Part shown: positions 15,453-34,374 of the stretch, piece by piece
Layout: every line of letters begins with the position of its first letter
Position numbering within the stretch: the first letter of the stretch is position 1
Assembly (NCBI RefSeq): GCF_039634785.1
Contig: NZ_JBBIAB010000008.1
Span: forward strand, 124,001-188,000
Source of the DNA: Tistrella mobilis
GTDB lineage: Bacteria > Pseudomonadota > Alphaproteobacteria > Tistrellales > Tistrellaceae
Direction: 5' to 3'
Length of the DNA stretch: 64,000 nt
The notes under the pieces: generated by a model
The model's database searches: none
Seen by the model: only the letters and a program-made list of their open reading frames with translations
Told to the model about the DNA's origin: nothing
Translations under genes and position numbers: made by a program

Positions 15453-18288
<2,836 letters not shown>

Positions 18289-26589: not shown

Positions 26590-27348
26590 TCAGTAGCTGC
26601 TCTCCAGCCGGTAGCGTGTGCCGGGGTAGAGCAGGCGCACCGCCGTCACCACCCGCGGCCCCGACCAGGTCCGGCGGCGGACCATCAGGCAGGGCTCGGC
26701 GCGGGCAATCGCGAGCAGCCGGCATTCCCAGGCCTTGGGCAGGATCGCTTCAACCGACTGTTCGGTGCGGGTGATGGGGGCGAGTGCCGTAAGGTAGGCG
26801 TTGGGCGTGATACTGCTGAAATCCTGGGCCAGATAGTCGGGCGCCACCGCCGGGTTGACGAACCGGTCCTCGATCTGGATCGGCACCTCGTCCTCGCGAT
26901 GGACGATGACGGTGTGGAAGACTTCCGATCCCATCGCGACCTCCAGCGCGTCGGCAAGCTCCGGCCCGCAATTTTCTTTCTGGCTCAGGGTGATGGAAAC
27001 CGTATGGGCGGCGCCGCGTTCGGCGATCTCGTCGGCGATGTTGCGCACGCCCAGGAAGGGGGCGCTGCGCTTGGCGGGGGCGACGAAGGATCCCTTGCCC
27101 TGAACGCGCAGGATCACGCCTTCGGCCGCCAGCTCTCTCAGGGCGCGATGCGCGGTCATGCGGCTCACCCCCATCTCCTCGACCAGCTCGTTCTCCGACG
27201 GTACCCGGTGATTGGCCGGCCAGTCGCCGCTGGCGATGCGTGACTTGATACGGGCCTTTAGCTGCTCGTAAAGCGGCAAGTCGCGCAGCCCGTCTTCGCC
27301 GGCCGGCGCCGGCCGGGTCGCCTCGATCTGGATGCCGATCTGGGTCAT
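26590..27348 (-). CDS. hutC: HutC-type GntR-family repressor
   Basis: A 252-residue regulator: GntR winged helix (about 25-95: LYEQLKARIKSRIASGDW, HRVPSENELVEEMGVSRMTAHRAL, VQGKGSFVA) and a UTRA ligand domain (about 115-245). HutC represses hut genes and is released by urocanate in known systems. ATG 27348 is chosen; in-frame ATGs further up (e.g. 27372) lie inside the operator region. It is divergent from the importer and lyase genes it presumably controls. Confidence 0.88.
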   Translation of the reverse strand: MTQIGIQIEATRPAPAGEDGLRDLPLYEQLKARIKSRIASGDWPANHRVPSENELVEEMGVSRMTAHRALRELAAEGVILRVQGKGSFVAPAKRSAPFLGVRNIADEIAERGAAHTVSITLSQKENCGPELADALEVAMGSEVFHTVIVHREDEVPIQIEDRFVNPAVAPDYLAQDFSSITPNAYLTALAPITRTEQSVEAILPKAWECRLLAIARAEPCLMVRRRTWSGPRVVTAVRLLYPGTRYRLESSY

Positions 27349-27377: not shown

Positions 27378-27447
27378 AAGTTGCATGTTTTTCGACCATA
27401 CAGGATTGCGTCCCTTCGGGAAATGGGTCATCTTGCATATACAACTT
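27378..27447. promoter_or_regulatory. hutC-hutX operator region
   Basis: Two related sites lie in the 243-bp divergent region. At 27432-27447 is CTTGCATATACAACTT, containing a nearly perfect palindrome TTGCATATACAA of the kind reported for HutC. At 27378-27386 is AAGTTGCAT, a half-site in the opposite sense. Their position between the divergent starts suggests HutC controls both itself and the operon. Confidence 0.6.
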
Positions 27448-27591: not shown

Positions 27592-28635
27592 GTGTCGAAT
27601 TTCACCTTCACCACGCTCAAGCTCGCGCTCGCCACCACGGCCGCCGTGTTCGCGGTCTCCACCGGCAGCGCCCAGGCCTCGTATTGCGGGGACGGCAAGA
27701 CCGTCACCTTTGCCGGCATCGACTGGGAAAGCGGCGCCTTCATCACCGAGGTGATGAAGACCATCCTGTCCGAAGGCTATGACTGCGCGGTTGACGCGAT
27801 CCCCGGCAACTCTGTGACGCTGGAGCAGGCGACCGCCAATAACGACGTCCAGATCTTCGCCGAGGAATGGATCGGCCGCAGCGACGTCTGGAACAATGCC
27901 GCCGCCGCCGGCCAGGTGGTCTCGGTCGGCAAGACCTTCGTCGGCGCCAGCGAGGGCTGGTTTGTCCCGGCCTATATGATCAAGGGCGACACCACCCGCG
28001 GCATCGCCCCTGCCGCGCCCAAGCTGGAGACGGTGGAGCAGCTCAAGGATCCGGCGATCGTGAAGCTGTTCACCGACCCGGAGGAGCCGTCGAAGGGCCG
28101 TTTCCTGAACTGCCCCTCGGGCTGGACCTGCGAGGGTGTCAACACGGCCAAGCTCGAAGCCTACAAGCTTACCGACGATTATGTGAACTTCCGCCCGGGC
28201 ACCGGCACCGCGCTGGATGCGGCGATCTCGGCCGCCTATCTGCGCGGCGAGCCGATCCTGTTCTACTACTGGACGCCGACCGCGATCATGGGCAAGTACG
28301 ATCTGGTCCAGCTGAAGGAACCGGCCTATGACGAGGCCTGCTGGACGGAGCTGACCAGCGCCACCGGCAAGCGTGACCGCGGCTGCGCCTTCCCGGCGGT
28401 CGAGGTTGCCTATGGCCTGAACGCCGATTTCGCCAAGGCGGCGCCCGAGATCGTCGAGATGCTGGAGAAGGCGACCTTCCCGCTGGCCGAGGTGAATGCC
28501 AGCCTGGCCTATATGGTCGACGAAAAGGCCGATGCCCAGGCTGCCGCGAAACGCTTCCTGGCGACCAAGGGCGATGTCTGGGGCGGCTGGGTTCCGGCCG
28601 AGGTCCGGGCGAAGATCGAGGCGGCGGTGAAGTGA
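27592..28635 (+). CDS. hutX: ProX/HutX-type periplasmic binding protein (betaine/histidine class)
   Basis: A 347-residue solute-binding protein of the glycine betaine/proline-betaine (OpuAC-type) class. Signal peptide about 1-29 ending AQA-S; the GTG start is preceded by AAAAAAGGG. Six or more cysteines in the mature part (YCGDG, YDCAV, NCPSGWTC, EACW, RGCAF) suggest disulfides. Aromatic-rich segments (EEWIGRSDVW, FYYWTPTA) are typical of cages that bind a quaternary ammonium group. The closest described relatives are HutX proteins of Sinorhizobium and pseudomonads. First gene of hutX-W-V-lyase; a hairpin follows the stop. Confidence 0.88.
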   Translation: MSNFTFTTLKLALATTAAVFAVSTGSAQASYCGDGKTVTFAGIDWESGAFITEVMKTILSEGYDCAVDAIPGNSVTLEQATANNDVQIFAEEWIGRSDVWNNAAAAGQVVSVGKTFVGASEGWFVPAYMIKGDTTRGIAPAAPKLETVEQLKDPAIVKLFTDPEEPSKGRFLNCPSGWTCEGVNTAKLEAYKLTDDYVNFRPGTGTALDAAISAAYLRGEPILFYYWTPTAIMGKYDLVQLKEPAYDEACWTELTSATGKRDRGCAFPAVEVAYGLNADFAKAAPEIVEMLEKATFPLAEVNASLAYMVDEKADAQAAAKRFLATKGDVWGGWVPAEVRAKIEAAVK

Positions 28636-28763: not shown

Positions 28764-29621
28764 ATGTTCCCCGAGTCCCTCCACATTTCCATTCGCGGGC
28801 CGATCAACGACTTCGTCCGCATGCTGGTGGTCGATTACGGCTTCGTGTTCAAGGCCGTGTCGAACGTCATCCTCCAGGGCATCCTGGTCATCGAGCAGAT
28901 CCTGCGCGGCCTGCCCTGGTGGGTGGTGTTTCTGGTGTTCACGGGGCTTGCCTGGCAGGCGACCCGCCGGATTGCGCCGACCGTGATGATCGCCGTGATG
29001 CTGCTGGTCGTGGGCGTGCTCGGGCTCTGGGACCTGACCATGCAGACGCTCGCCCTGATGCTGATGGCGACACTCGTCTCGGTGGTCATCGGCATCCCCG
29101 TCGGGATCTGGGTCGCCAAAAGCCGGATCATGCGCGGCATCACCCTGCCGGTGCTCGACGTGATGCAGACCATGCCGAGCTTCGTCTATCTGATCCCGGC
29201 GATCATGCTCTTCGGCCTGGGCAAGGTGCCGGCGGTGCTGGCGACCATCATCTACGCCGTGCCGCCGCTGATCCGGCTCACCGATCTCGGCATCCGTCAG
29301 GTCGACCGCGAGGTGATCGAGGCCGCCCAGGCCTTCGGCGGCAGTCCGCGCCAGATCCTGTTCGGGGTGGAACTGCCGCTCGCAACCCCGACCATCATGG
29401 CCGGTCTCAACCAGACGATCATGATGGCCCTGTCGATGGTGGTGGTCGCCTCCATGATCGGCGCCCGCGGCCTTGGCGAGCAGGTGCTGAACGGCATCCA
29501 GACGCTCGATGTCGGCAAGGGGCTGGAAGCGGGGCTCGGCATCGTCATCCTGGCCATCGTGCTCGACCGCATCACCCAGGGCTTCGGCCGGCCGCGCAAC
29601 GAGGATGCCCGTCATGGCTGA
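28764..29621 (+). CDS. hutW: ProW/HutW-type ABC permease
   Basis: A 285-residue inner-membrane permease with about six helices. The EAA loop is EAAQAFGGSPRQILFGVELP at about 190-210, and the conserved VLDVMQTMPSFVYLIPAIMLFG segment is typical of ProW. It pairs with hutV, which overlaps its end by 8 bp. It passes the substrate delivered by the binding protein. Confidence 0.92.
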   Translation: MFPESLHISIRGPINDFVRMLVVDYGFVFKAVSNVILQGILVIEQILRGLPWWVVFLVFTGLAWQATRRIAPTVMIAVMLLVVGVLGLWDLTMQTLALMLMATLVSVVIGIPVGIWVAKSRIMRGITLPVLDVMQTMPSFVYLIPAIMLFGLGKVPAVLATIIYAVPPLIRLTDLGIRQVDREVIEAAQAFGGSPRQILFGVELPLATPTIMAGLNQTIMMALSMVVVASMIGARGLGEQVLNGIQTLDVGKGLEAGLGIVILAIVLDRITQGFGRPRNEDARHG

Positions 29622-30435
29622 GATCGAGATCCGCAATGTCTACAAGATCTTCGGCCGCGACACCGGAACCGCGCTCCGGCTTGCGAAGGAGGGTCTCGAC
29701 AAGGCCGAGGTGCTGGCCCGCACCGGCTGCAGCGTCGGCCTGGACGATGTCAGCCTGACCATCGGCGCCGGCCGGATCTTCGTGATCATGGGGCTGTCGG
29801 GTTCGGGCAAGTCGACGCTGGTCCGGCACATCAACCGGCTGATCGAGCCCACCGCCGGCGAGGTTCGTTTCGACGGCCGCAACATCCTGGATCTGGGAGC
29901 GAAGGCGCTCAGGGATTTCCGCACCCATCGGGTCAGCATGGTGTTCCAGAGCTTCGGGCTGATGCCGCATCGCACCGTGCTGCAGAACGTCGTCTACGGC
30001 CAGCGGGTGCGCGGCCTGTCGCGCGCCGAGGCCCGGCCGATCGGCATGCAGTGGATCGAGGCGGTCGGCCTGTCCGGCTATGAAGACAAGTATCCTCACC
30101 AGCTGTCGGGCGGCATGAAGCAGCGCGTCGGCCTTGCCCGGGCCCTGGCCGCCGATACCGACGTGATCCTGATGGACGAGGCCTTCTCGGCGCTTGATCC
30201 GCTGATCCGCACCGACATGCAGGACCAGCTGCTTCAGCTGCAGCAGAACCTCGCCAAGACCATCGTCTTCATCACTCACGATCTGGACGAGGCGCTGCGC
30301 ATAGGTTCTGAGATCGCGATCCTGAAGGATGGCCGCCTGGTCCAGGTCGGCAGCCCCGACGAGATCCTGACCAACCCCGCCAACGACTATGTCGCCCGTT
30401 TCGTCCAGCGTCGGACCGGAGGTGGCCATGACTGA
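29614..30435 (+). CDS. hutV: ProV/HutV-type ABC ATPase
   Basis: A 273-residue ATPase. The N-terminal KIFGRDTGTALRLAKEGLDKA segment is characteristic of the glycine-betaine ProV class. Walker A GLSGSGKST, Q-loop VFQSFGLMPHRT, signature LSGGMKQR, Walker B VILMDEAFSALDP and switch His in ITHDLDEA are all present. It lacks the long C-terminal CBS pair of ProV, as HutV proteins do. Starts 8 bp inside hutW and ends 8 bp inside the lyase gene, so importer and lyase are translationally coupled. Confidence 0.92.
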   Translation: MAEIEIRNVYKIFGRDTGTALRLAKEGLDKAEVLARTGCSVGLDDVSLTIGAGRIFVIMGLSGSGKSTLVRHINRLIEPTAGEVRFDGRNILDLGAKALRDFRTHRVSMVFQSFGLMPHRTVLQNVVYGQRVRGLSRAEARPIGMQWIEAVGLSGYEDKYPHQLSGGMKQRVGLARALAADTDVILMDEAFSALDPLIRTDMQDQLLQLQQNLAKTIVFITHDLDEALRIGSEIAILKDGRLVQVGSPDEILTNPANDYVARFVQRRTGGGHD

Positions 30436-31990
30436 TCCCATGCAGGATCCGGCGGCGCCGGACGGCTTTCTTTCGGGGGACGTGACCGCGGAGGCGCTCG
30501 TGCAGGCGAACCGCATCATCCTCGACCGCGTCCTCGGCTGGCGCGACCTCGCCTCCATTGCCGAAGGGGCCGGGCTGGAGCTGTCGCCTGCCGCCTGGGC
30601 ACGGATCGAGGCGGCGCGCCGGGTGGTCGATGCCCTGGTCGACCGCGGCATCCGCGGCTATGGCATCAATACCGGCGTCGGTGCGCTCTGCGACGTGATC
30701 ATCGACCGCTCCGCCCAGCAGAGCCTGTCGCGCAACATCCTGTTCAGCCATGCCTGCGGCGTGGGGGAGCCGCTGCCCGAGGCGGAGACCCGTGCGATCA
30801 TGGCTGCCCAGATCGCCAATTTTGCCCATGGCTATTCGGGCGTGCGGCCGCAGACGGTCGCGGCACTGCTGGCGCTGCTGAATGCCAATATCCTGCCGGT
30901 GATCCCCGCGCGCGGCTCGGTCGGCTATCTCACCCATGCGGCCCAGATCGGTCTGGTGCTGATCGGCCACGGCACGGCCCGCAAGGGGATGGAACTGCTG
31001 ACCGGACGCGAGGCCCTGGCCGCTGTCGGGCTGGAACCGCTGGTGCTGGAAGCCAAGGAAGGCCTGAGCCTGGTCAACGGCACGCCCTGTGCCACCGGCC
31101 TCGCCTGTCTGGCGCTGGCCCGTATGGACCGGGCGATGGACTGGGCGGATGCCGCGGCGACGCTCGCCTACGAGAATCTGGGCGCCCAGGCGGGGGCCTT
31201 CGCCCCGGCGCCGCTGGCCCTGCGCACCTCTCCGGGGCTGCAGACCGTCGGCGCCAGGCTCGATGCCTGGCTTGCCGGCAGCGAGCTGCTGGCCGCCGCC
31301 GCCGGCAGCCGCACGCAGGATCCGCTCAGCCTGCGCGCCGTGCCCCAGATCCATGGCGCGGTGCGCGACCAGGTGGAGCAGCTGGCGGTGGTGGTCGATC
31401 GGGAGCTGGCCAGCGTCACCGACAATCCGGCGGTGTCGGGCACGCCCGAGGCCCCCGAGGTGCATTCCCAGGCCCATGCGGTCGGGGCGGCGCTCGGTCT
31501 GGCCATGGACGGGCTGGCGGTGGCGGCGGCAGAGCTTGCCGCGATTTCGGAACGCCGGGTCGACCGGCTGGTCAACCCGCTGGTCAGCCGGCTGCCGGCC
31601 TTTCTGGCCGGCGACAGCGGGGTGTGTTCGGGCTTCATGATCGCCCAATACACCGCCGCGGCGCTGGCTGCCGAATGCCGGCGGCTCGCCGCCCCGGCCA
31701 GCCTGGATGGCGGCATCACCTCGGCGCTTCAGGAAGACATCCTGACCCACGCCACCCCGGCCGCGGGCAAGGCGCTGGCGGTGCTCGACAATCTTGAGCG
31801 CATCCTGGCGATCGAGCTGCTGGCCGCCGCCCAGGCCTATGATCTGCAACCCCCGGCCCTCGCCCGGGCGCCGCGCACCGATGCGCTCTATCGCCGCATC
31901 CGGGCCCGCGTGGCCCCCTATGCCGACGACCGGCCGCTCAACGGCGATTTCGCCGCCCTGCATACCATCCTCAGGACCACCCGTCCCTGA
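30428..31990 (+). CDS. HutH-like aromatic amino acid lyase lacking the MIO triad
   Basis: A 520-residue protein of the histidine/phenylalanine ammonia-lyase superfamily: YGINTGVG (Tyr78), [10 protein letters not shown] (His108), EGLSLVNGT (Asn217), SERR and ALQED (Glu436) are all conserved. However, the segment that should read GSVGASGDL reads [10 protein letters not shown] (163-172): exactly the Ala-Ser-Gly that cyclises into the MIO electrophile is absent, in frame, with flanking alignment intact. The conserved QDPYSLR reads QDPLSLR, so the catalytic Tyr is also lost. It is therefore unlikely to deaminate histidine by the MIO route. Ergothionase, a trimethylamine-releasing member of this superfamily reported to work without MIO, is the best precedent. 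Substrate inferred as a histidine betaine. Overlaps hutV by 8 bp. Confidence 0.85.
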
Positions 31991-32064: not shown

Positions 32065-33738
32065 ATGAGCAATCCGCGCCACAACATCCGCGAGATCAGG
32101 GCGCCGCGCGGACCTGAGATCAGCGCCCGGAGCTGGCTGACCGAGGCCCCGCTCCGCATGCTGATGAACAACCTCGATCCGGACGTCGCCGAGAACCCCA
32201 ACGAGCTGGTGGTCTATGGCGGCATCGGCCGCGCCGCCCGCACCTGGGAAGATTTCGACCGGATCGCGACCACGCTGCGCACGCTTTCGGATGACGAGAC
32301 CCTGCTGGTTCAGTCGGGCAAGCCGGTGGGCGTGTTCCGCACCCACAAAGATGCGCCCCGGGTGCTGATCGCCAATTCCAACCTGGTGCCGCATTGGGCG
32401 ACCTGGGACCATTTCAACGAACTGGACCGCAAGGGCCTGGCCATGTACGGCCAGATGACCGCCGGATCCTGGATCTATATCGGCACCCAGGGCATCGTTC
32501 AGGGCACCTACGAGACCTTCGTCGAAGCCGGCCGCCAGCATTATGACGGCAATCTGAAGGGCCGCTGGATCCTGACCGGCGGGCTCGGCGGCATGGGTGG
32601 TGCCCAGCCGCTGGCGGCGGTGATGGCCGGCGCCTGCTGCCTGGCGGTGGAGTGCAACCCCGACTCGATCGATTTCCGCCTCCGCACCCGCTATCTGGAT
32701 GCGAAGACGGAATCCCTCGACGAGGCGCTGGAGATGATCCGGGTCTGGACCGAGGCCGGCGAGGCGAAATCGGTCGGTCTGCTCGGCAATGCCGCCGAGA
32801 TTCTGCCCGAACTGGTCTGCCGCGGCGTCCGCCCCGATATCGTCACCGACCAGACCTCGGCCCATGATCCGATCAACGGCTATCTGCCGATCGGCTGGAA
32901 CATCGCCGAATGGCGGGCGAAGCGGGAAAGCGATCCCAAGGCGGTGGAAGCGGCGGCACGGGCTTCGATGAAGGTCCATGTCCAGGCGATGCTCGACTTC
33001 TGGAACCAGGGCGTGCCGACCCTCGACTATGGCAACAACATCCGCCAGGTCGCGAAGGATGAGGGGCTGGAAAACGCCTTCGCCTTCCCCGGCTTCGTGC
33101 CGGCCTATATCCGCCCGCTCTTCTGCCGCGGCGTCGGCCCGTTCCGCTGGGCAGCGCTCTCCGGGGATCCGGAAGACATCTACAAGACCGATGCCAAGGT
33201 GAAGGAACTGCTGCCCGACAACACCCATCTCCACCGCTGGCTGGACATGGCGCGGGACCGGATCTCCTTCCAGGGCCTGCCGGCGCGGATCTGCTGGGTC
33301 GGCCTGGGCGATCGTCACCGCCTTGGTCTCGCCTTCAACGAGATGGTCGCGAAGGGCGAGTTGAAGGCACCGGTGGTGATCGGCCGCGACCATCTGGATT
33401 CGGGGTCGGTTGCCAGCCCCAACCGCGAGACCGAGGCGATGAAGGACGGCTCGGATGCGGTGTCGGACTGGCCGCTGCTGAACGCCCTGCTCAACTGCGC
33501 GAGCGGCGCCACCTGGGTCAGCCTCCATCATGGCGGCGGCGTGGGTATGGGCTTTTCGCAGCATTCGGGTATGGTCGTCGTCTGTGACGGCACCGAGGAT
33601 GCTGCGCGCCGGGTGGAGCGGGTTCTGTGGAACGACCCTGCGACCGGCGTGATGCGCCATGCCGATGCCGGCTATGACATCGCGCTCGACTGCGCCCGCG
33701 AACAGGGGCTGCGTCTGCCCGCGATCCTGGGGAACTGA
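32065..33738 (+). CDS. hutU: Urocanate hydratase
   Basis: A 557-residue NAD-dependent enzyme, exactly the length usual in pseudomonads. Motifs conserved throughout: [64 protein letters not shown], the active-site Cys in [11 protein letters not shown], and [15 protein letters not shown]. It adds water to urocanate to form imidazolone propionate. The sequence looks canonical, without changes that would point to a thio-substituted substrate. GAGGAG precedes the ATG. hutI and downstream genes are not in the window. Confidence 0.97.
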
Positions 33739-33777: not shown

Positions 33778-34374
33778 ATGGCCCCGATGCGTCTGCTGCC
33801 TGCGGCCGGACATCGGCGCATGCCCTGGAAGAACGGCGGCGGCGAGACCGTGGAAATCGCGATCTCGCCCGCCGATGCCGGGCTCGACGGCTTCGATTGG
33901 CGGTTGAGCATGGCGACCGTCGCCACCGACGGCCCGTTCTCCGTCTTCCCCGGCATCGACCGGTCGCTTGCGGTGATCCGCGGCGCGGGGATGGAGTTGT
34001 CGGTGGCAGGGGTCGGCAGCTGCAGCCTGGACCCCGCTGCCGAGCCCTTCGCCTTTCCCGCCGATCAGCCCACCACCGCCCGGCTGATCCACGGGCCGAT
34101 CACCGATCTCAACCTGATGACCCGGCGGGCGGGGTTCGTCCACGAAATGGAGCGGATGCGGGTCGCCGGCCCCGTCGATCTGGCCGTGGTGTCCGAGGTC
34201 GTGCTGCTGCTGTGCGTCAGCGGCCAGGTCGGCGTGCAGATCCGGGGCGAAACGGTCGATCTTGCACCGCTCGACGCCCTGCTGATCGACCGCCGCGGCC
34301 TGGCCGAGGCCGGCGGGGTCGATGGCGAGGGTCTGCTGATGGTCTGCCGGATCCGCGAGCGCATGCTGGCCTGA
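33778..34374 (+). CDS. hutD: HutD/Ves-family cupin
   Basis: A 198-residue bicupin-fold protein with the family motif MPWKNGGGETVEIA at about 15-28, SMATVATDGPFSVFPGIDR and DLNLMTRR. HutD proteins accompany hut operons and have been proposed to limit operon activity, perhaps by binding a pathway intermediate; the mechanism is not settled. GGAGG lies before the ATG, 39 bp after hutU, so it is the last gene of the unit here. An 18-bp GC palindrome occupies 33741-33758 between the two genes. Confidence 0.92.
   Translation: MAPMRLLPAAGHRRMPWKNGGGETVEIAISPADAGLDGFDWRLSMATVATDGPFSVFPGIDRSLAVIRGAGMELSVAGVGSCSLDPAAEPFAFPADQPTTARLIHGPITDLNLMTRRAGFVHEMERMRVAGPVDLAVVSEVVLLLCVSGQVGVQIRGETVDLAPLDALLIDRRGLAEAGGVDGEGLLMVCRIRERMLA

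Follow-up and report, generated by a model that had tools for sequence, protein, structure and literature searches.

In canonical histidine ammonia-lyase (HutH), His83 and Glu414 hold the imidazole of the substrate and Arg283 holds its carboxylate, and the loss of ammonia needs both the MIO, which is formed by cyclisation of an Ala-Ser-Gly triad, and the catalytic Tyr280. Ergothionase is a known trimethylamine-lyase without MIO, such that MIO-less elimination of trimethylamine is already known from this enzyme. Concerning second HutH-like genes, a hutXWV-hutH2 locus of Sinorhizobium meliloti is said to have been described by Boncompagni et al. 2000, and hutX and hutH2 mutants of this species reportedly grew about 30% more poorly on histidine as nitrogen source. 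For Pseudomonas fluorescens SBW25, hutH1 is reported to be dispensable for growth on histidine; it is inserted, together with hutTu and hutXWV, between hutU and hutH, and HutXWV is described as participating in histidine uptake (review, PMC8871633). In the open-licence literature, neither a missing MIO nor hercynine as a substrate was found mentioned for hutH1 or hutH2, and a hercynine lyase in hut operons was not found described there, an earlier description elsewhere being possible.

Organization of the hut locus

The analysed stretch of Tistrella mobilis DNA (64 kb; hereafter the window) contains a compact hut locus, with hutC on the minus strand and, on the plus strand, hutX, hutW, hutV, the lyase gene, hutU, and a hutD-like gene. 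hutC (26590..27279, minus strand) encodes a GntR/UTRA histidine-utilisation repressor (TIGR02018, 295.5 bits, cutoff 220) and is divergent from the operon; its open frame extends to 27495, with the true start at about 27279. Between hutC and hutX, a candidate HutC operator was found by sequence match (27434..27443, plus strand): TGCATATACA exhibits one mismatch to TGTATATACA, which we take to be the operator consensus, and is the sole match in the 64 kb (chance expectation 0.01).

The importer genes are of the betaine type. hutX (27592..28635, plus strand) encodes a periplasmic binding protein of the ProX/OpuAC type (PF04069 OpuAC, 210 bits), hutW (28764..29621, plus strand) a betaine-type ABC permease (TIGR03416/ProW family, under the curated cutoffs), and hutV (29605..30435, plus strand; probable start within the open reading frame 29509-30435) a betaine/proline/choline ABC ATPase (TIGR01186, 345.9 bits, cutoff 326.6). 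HutX possesses the three Trp of the ProX/OpuAC-type quaternary-amine box (W93, W178, and W227), all of which are present in 37/37 HutX proteins compared; W178 and W227 align with ProX W140 and W188, and W93, which aligns with a Trp of 7YLE, probably corresponds to ProX W65.

The lyase gene (30428..31990, plus strand; 520 aa; PF00221 Lyase_aromatic, 494 bits) shares its first 8 bases with the end of hutV. It is followed by hutU (32065..33738, plus strand), a canonical urocanate hydratase (TIGR01228, 970 bits; 678 bits with the thiourocanate hydratase model, cutoff 930), and by the hutD-like gene of the Ves/HutD cupin type (33778..34374, plus strand), assigned by a weak Ves match (67 bits), by its position after hutU, and by the annotation of HutD in a related locus (L039). 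Another contig of the same genome carries hutC, hutI, hutF, a canonical hutH with the motif GSVGASGDL, and hutG. The hutU of the window is the single copy in this genome, so that its adjacency to the lyase gene says little, for this genome taken singly, about the product of the lyase.

MIO site and active-site residues

An alignment with P. putida HutH (GSVGASGDLAPLAHMS ... QDPYSLR) shows that the lyase lacks three residues at the MIO site and carries Leu where HutH has Tyr280: GSVGASGDLAP of HutH reads GSVG-YLTH in the lyase, and QDPYSLR reads QDPLSLR (residues 297-303). The codons of the remodelled loop, G163-S-V-G166 and then Y167, lie at 30914..30928 (plus strand), and that of Leu300 at 31325..31327 (plus strand). 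An earlier reading of the window, made from its sequence only, had described a HutH-like reading frame without Ala-Ser-Gly, with a junction at 30925/30926, Leu replacing the catalytic Tyr, and Tyr78, His108, Asn217, Arg303, and Glu436 retained; translation and alignment agree with it on all of these points, G166 ending at 30925 and Y167 beginning at 30926. The same reading considered exactly the triad and the Tyr to be missing, which is correct for both losses but not for "exactly", as HutH active-site Phe329, not reported there, is replaced as well (Ala351, codon at 31478..31480, plus strand). Similarly, the shortening by three residues stands, but not the clean excision with intact flanks: MAFFT pairs Tyr167 with HutH Ala142, such that ASG and SGD are indistinguishable as the missing triplet, and because the flanking Asp145 and Pro148 are also altered, the site constitutes a remodelled loop rather than a bare excision.

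The alignment comprised 171 distinct HAL-family sequences, among them 96 relatives of the lyase (>50% identity) and 56 MIO-type comparison proteins. All of the relatives (96/96) have lost the triad and carry Leu at Tyr280 and Ala at Phe329, whereas triad, Tyr, and Phe are present in 56/56 MIO-type proteins, 0/56 of which exhibit any of the changes. The counterparts of Tyr53, His83, Asn195, Gln277, Arg283, and Glu414 are kept in 96/96 relatives. Given the roles of these residues in HutH, the part that recognizes the histidine skeleton appears to be conserved and the part that handles ammonia to be lost. Copies 98-99% identical to the lyase exist in two further genomes of the same genus. Sequencing error or decay was considered as a cause of the MIO loss and rejected, since all three changes are invariant in the 96 relatives, which is in line with the earlier opinion that the gene is not decaying. 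Judged by its sequence, the window gene is conserved and is mis-annotated as histidine ammonia-lyase.

The invariance of the substrate-binding and base residues in the 96 relatives also speaks against a non-catalytic paralogue, e.g., one that regulates canonical HutH by forming mixed tetramers with it. Such a role would fit with the frequent adjacency of canonical hutH (29/91 loci) and with the tandem arrangement in pseudomonad-like loci; however, the lyase is accompanied by an importer and a repressor of its own, including on plasmids and in hutH-less loci, and we regard this explanation as very improbable.

Phylogenetic and structural placement

By its Lyase_aromatic match the lyase belongs to the HAL/PAL fold, but it stays below the HutH equivalog cutoffs (TIGR01225, 452.4 vs 539.15; NF006871, 461.4 vs 524). 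Its AlphaFold2 model, computed from an alignment without plasmid-derived rows, exhibits the HAL fold (pLDDT 86.5), with Z scores of 45.3 to P. putida HutH (1B8F) and 43.8 to ergothionase. In the tree with HutH and ergothionase proteins, which the sequence-only reading had called for, the subfamily adjoins the MIO-containing HutH proteins, and the ergothionase of T. denticola is placed elsewhere. An AU test rejected the subfamily and ergothionase as one clade (p-AU about 1e-64). Two independent losses of the MIO, one in the subfamily and one in ergothionase, are favoured by the tree; they are not claimed as shown, because a single branch splitting MIO from non-MIO proteins was not rejected (p 0.105).

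Shortened or altered MIO loops also occur in further lyases. Two from Paraburkholderia (L172, 6622-8457, plus strand; L207, 8568-9965, plus strand; ~38% identity) have the same three-residue-shorter loop, and the former retains the catalytic Tyr (QDAYSLR); both adjoin a binding-protein gene, and the latter also a molybdenum hydroxylase. In Paraburkholderia elongata (L168, 3610-5146), a lyase copy is split, apparently by a frameshift, into two neighbouring open pieces, with an intact paralogue elsewhere in the genome. R. rhizogenes OV677 (L162; 6705-8351, minus strand, and 16096-17646, plus strand) and L202 contain two further MIO-less types (GSIGAADL and GSVGYLIATSH), each adjoining an OsmF-like glycine-betaine binding protein, and a fusion protein with DUF1989, as large as a TMAO demethylase, is situated ~8 kb away.

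Urocanate or thiourocanate as product

The hydratases beside the MIO-less subfamily (window, L039, L074, and L171) are canonical urocanases (914-985 bits vs 665-685 bits with the thiourocanate model). At four loci with ergothionase-type and related MIO-less lyases, a thiourocanate hydratase is found nearby; three of these score 1041-1060 bits (cutoff 930), and the fourth, the gene of which is cut off by the contig end, 862 bits. Thiourocanate hydratase is absent in 12/15 lyase-bearing genomes and situated at a different locus in the remaining 3, and the genome of the window has canonical hutU alone. Since the adjacent hydratases are canonical and most of these genomes lack thiourocanate hydratase, the product of the lyase is most likely urocanate, and its substrate probably a sulfur-free histidine derivative.

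For the same reasons, ergothioneine is disfavoured as a substrate. An ergothionase, converting ergothioneine to trimethylamine and thiourocanate, would share with the lyase the missing MIO, the replacement of Tyr by Leu, and the fold (see the Z score above), and the T. denticola enzyme is matched with E 1e-40; but the rejection of a joint clade and the type of hydratase next to the lyase, with thiourocanate hydratase either lacking in the genome or at a separate locus, render it highly unlikely that the lyase has this function. A divergent MIO-less group (L159, L160, and L161; GS[IV]GC[AG]D[IL]), with a thiourocanate hydratase near in at least L160 and L161, is a candidate for a second ergothionase type or a lyase of ergothioneine derivatives.

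Gene neighbourhoods in other genomes

The neighbourhood survey (tblastn with labelled references) covered 91 lyase loci from named genomes and plasmids. Hut operons with a member of the MIO-less subfamily occur in Alpha-, Beta-, and Gammaproteobacteria, and as a rule the genome possesses canonical hutH as well. hutC is nearby in 78 of the 91 loci, hutF in 52, hutU in 30, and canonical hutH in 29. The importer ahead of the lyase is either of the betaine type (hutXWV) or a histidine/opine-type ABC system; betaine-type hutX is present in 31 loci and an octopine (opine)-type set in about 40. Several Rhizobiaceae exhibit the order hutF-(hutXWV)-lyase-hutI-hutH-hutG-hutU-hutD.

In pseudomonad-like loci, matched to SBW25 by gene order, the arrangement is hutU...hutXWV-lyase-hutH-hutI-hutG. 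Their lyases are 49-53% identical to that of the window and show the same loss at the MIO site and the same Leu, with Pro in place of Phe329; the earlier question whether the second HutH of pseudomonads, adjacent to hutXWV, shares the deletion is thus answered in the affirmative for these loci. For the S. meliloti locus, the identity is 74%. Like a "second histidase", the lyase of the window is situated directly after hutXWV under hutC, and it has the GSxGY loop and the Leu.

Another HAL-family gene alongside the lyase was found in 11/11 alphaproteobacterial and 26/27 Pseudomonadota genomes (evenly drawn samples, with few first-look candidates scored per genome). In Pseudogemmobacter humi (L074), the lyase lies within a hutF...hutI-hutG-hutU-hutD operon, complete from urocanate to glutamate, without hutH; canonical HutH was not found in this draft genome, where the sole further HAL-family gene detected is divergent, likewise MIO-less, and close to a thiourocanate hydratase. 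The same hutH-less arrangement is found on a plasmid of Aureimonas AU20 (L039), as far as the plasmid itself is concerned, and in G648 (L222) the neighbourhood scan detected a near-complete hut cluster with the lyase and no canonical HutH. The clusters of L074 and G648/L222, the hut-operon setting in general, and the growth defect on histidine reported for S. meliloti hutH2 mutants would be consistent with a second true histidase, deaminating histidine without MIO by an altered mechanism. However, MIO and Tyr280 are gone in every member, and genomes with the lyase have, with few exceptions, another HAL-family gene, in most cases that of canonical HutH; a histidase function is therefore considered improbable.

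In the GSAGYLTH branch (L036, L037, L041, L101, L102, L109, L110, and L116), a solA-like N-methyl amino-acid oxidase follows directly after the lyase, and in other Rhizobium a sarcosine dehydrogenase is near. At three loci of Rhizobium/Ciceribacter (L032, L040, and L054), the lyase is found without hut genes, between a gene of the fatty-acid-desaturase family and genes for cytochrome c, 2Fe-2S, and molybdenum hydroxylase proteins; these loci also contain a PhnD-like binding protein, possibly pointing to a different heteroaromatic betaine.

Hercynine as the probable substrate

The Trp box of HutX and a urocanate-type product favour a compound that is both a histidine and a betaine, i.e., hercynine (Nalpha-trimethyl-histidine, histidine betaine). 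In our opinion, the lyase is probably a MIO-independent hercynine trimethylamine-lyase that feeds urocanate into the hut pathway. The following account of substrate, leaving group, base, and product induction is our inference. Hercynine would be imported by the betaine-type HutXWV, or by the opine/histidine-type importer in the sister branch. The lyase would grip the imidazole via His108 and Glu436 and the carboxylate via Arg303, as HutH does, with the NMe3+ housed in the space vacated by the triad, Tyr280, and Phe329. The beta-proton would be taken by a general base, for which Tyr78 is the probable candidate by analogy to HutH, and trans-urocanate and trimethylamine would be formed; with so good a leaving group as trimethylamine, an MIO would not be needed. 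The adjacent HutU would, together with the hut enzymes, degrade the urocanate, which, being the inducer of HutC, would turn the operon on. The sequence-only reading had likewise proposed that the enzyme works without MIO on a better leaving group, e.g., the trimethylamine of hercynine or ergothioneine; the residue pattern, the betaine-type importer, and the parallel to ergothionase support this indirectly, with hercynine favoured and ergothioneine disfavoured. The hutH-less operon of Pseudogemmobacter humi and the presence of another HAL-family gene in nearly all sampled genomes with the lyase likewise count in favour of hercynine.

Against hercynine speak the link of HutXWV to histidine uptake, the growth defect reported for S. 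meliloti, and the lack of trimethylamine-handling genes (Tdm, Tmm) beside the subfamily lyases, where similarity to sarcosine dehydrogenase alone was seen. A DUF1989 protein of Tdm size is absent in the genome of the window, and such proteins exist in 5/15 genomes, which therefore gives no support either way. Mono- or dimethylhistidine would also be compatible with the solA or sarcosine dehydrogenase genes found near the lyase in one branch. Correspondingly, the amine eliminated might be that of another Nalpha-substituted histidine, e.g., Nalpha,Nalpha-dimethylhistidine or an opine derived from histidine, with urocanate as the product all the same: in one branch, the lyase follows an octopine-type ABC importer and has solA or sarcosine dehydrogenase close, and the enlarged amine pocket would accommodate further substituents. 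In the branch of the window, however, the importer is of the betaine type and has the quaternary-amine Trp box, and without assistance a quaternary trimethylammonium group leaves more readily than a secondary or tertiary amine group, such that we consider these substrates unlikely.

If hercynine is indeed the substrate, the dispensability of hutH1 on histidine and the presence of a betaine-type importer in a hut operon would be accounted for, soil and rhizosphere bacteria would have an additional source of trimethylamine, and what becomes of the hercynine of fungi and bacteria would be tied to histidine catabolism. Many genes annotated as "histidine ammonia-lyase" are probably no histidases. 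On a wider scale, we tentatively suggest, with some doubt, an unrecognised pathway of hercynine catabolism inside the hut operons of many Proteobacteria, in which the MIO was lost separately from ergothionase and with the same change from Tyr to Leu, so that MIO-free elimination of trimethylamine would have arisen twice in the HAL/PAL superfamily. The MIO-less lyases also provide a natural test of the purpose of the MIO, which the superfamily appears to discard once a substrate brings a good leaving group of its own.

Comparison with known systems

With canonical HutH (P. putida, 1B8F), the lyase shares about 36% identity and the residues that bind imidazole and carboxylate, whereas it lacks the triad, Tyr280, and Phe329 and scores under the HutH equivalog cutoff. 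Despite the same fold, the missing triad, and the Leu for the catalytic Tyr, there are differences from the ergothionase of T. denticola (PDB 6S7J/6S7Q): The latter is about 26% identical to the lyase, retains Phe329, has Ser for Asn195 and Glu-Gly where HutH has Ala-Ser-Gly, and belongs to a separate lineage that pairs with thiourocanate hydratase. The organization found in the window resembles that of the hutXWV loci with SBW25 hutH1 and S. meliloti hutH2, which have the same gene order and belong to the same subfamily by sequence, but are described as histidases; for this unexplained and mis-annotated "second histidase" of Pseudomonas and Rhizobium, the elimination of trimethylamine from hercynine would constitute a testable function.
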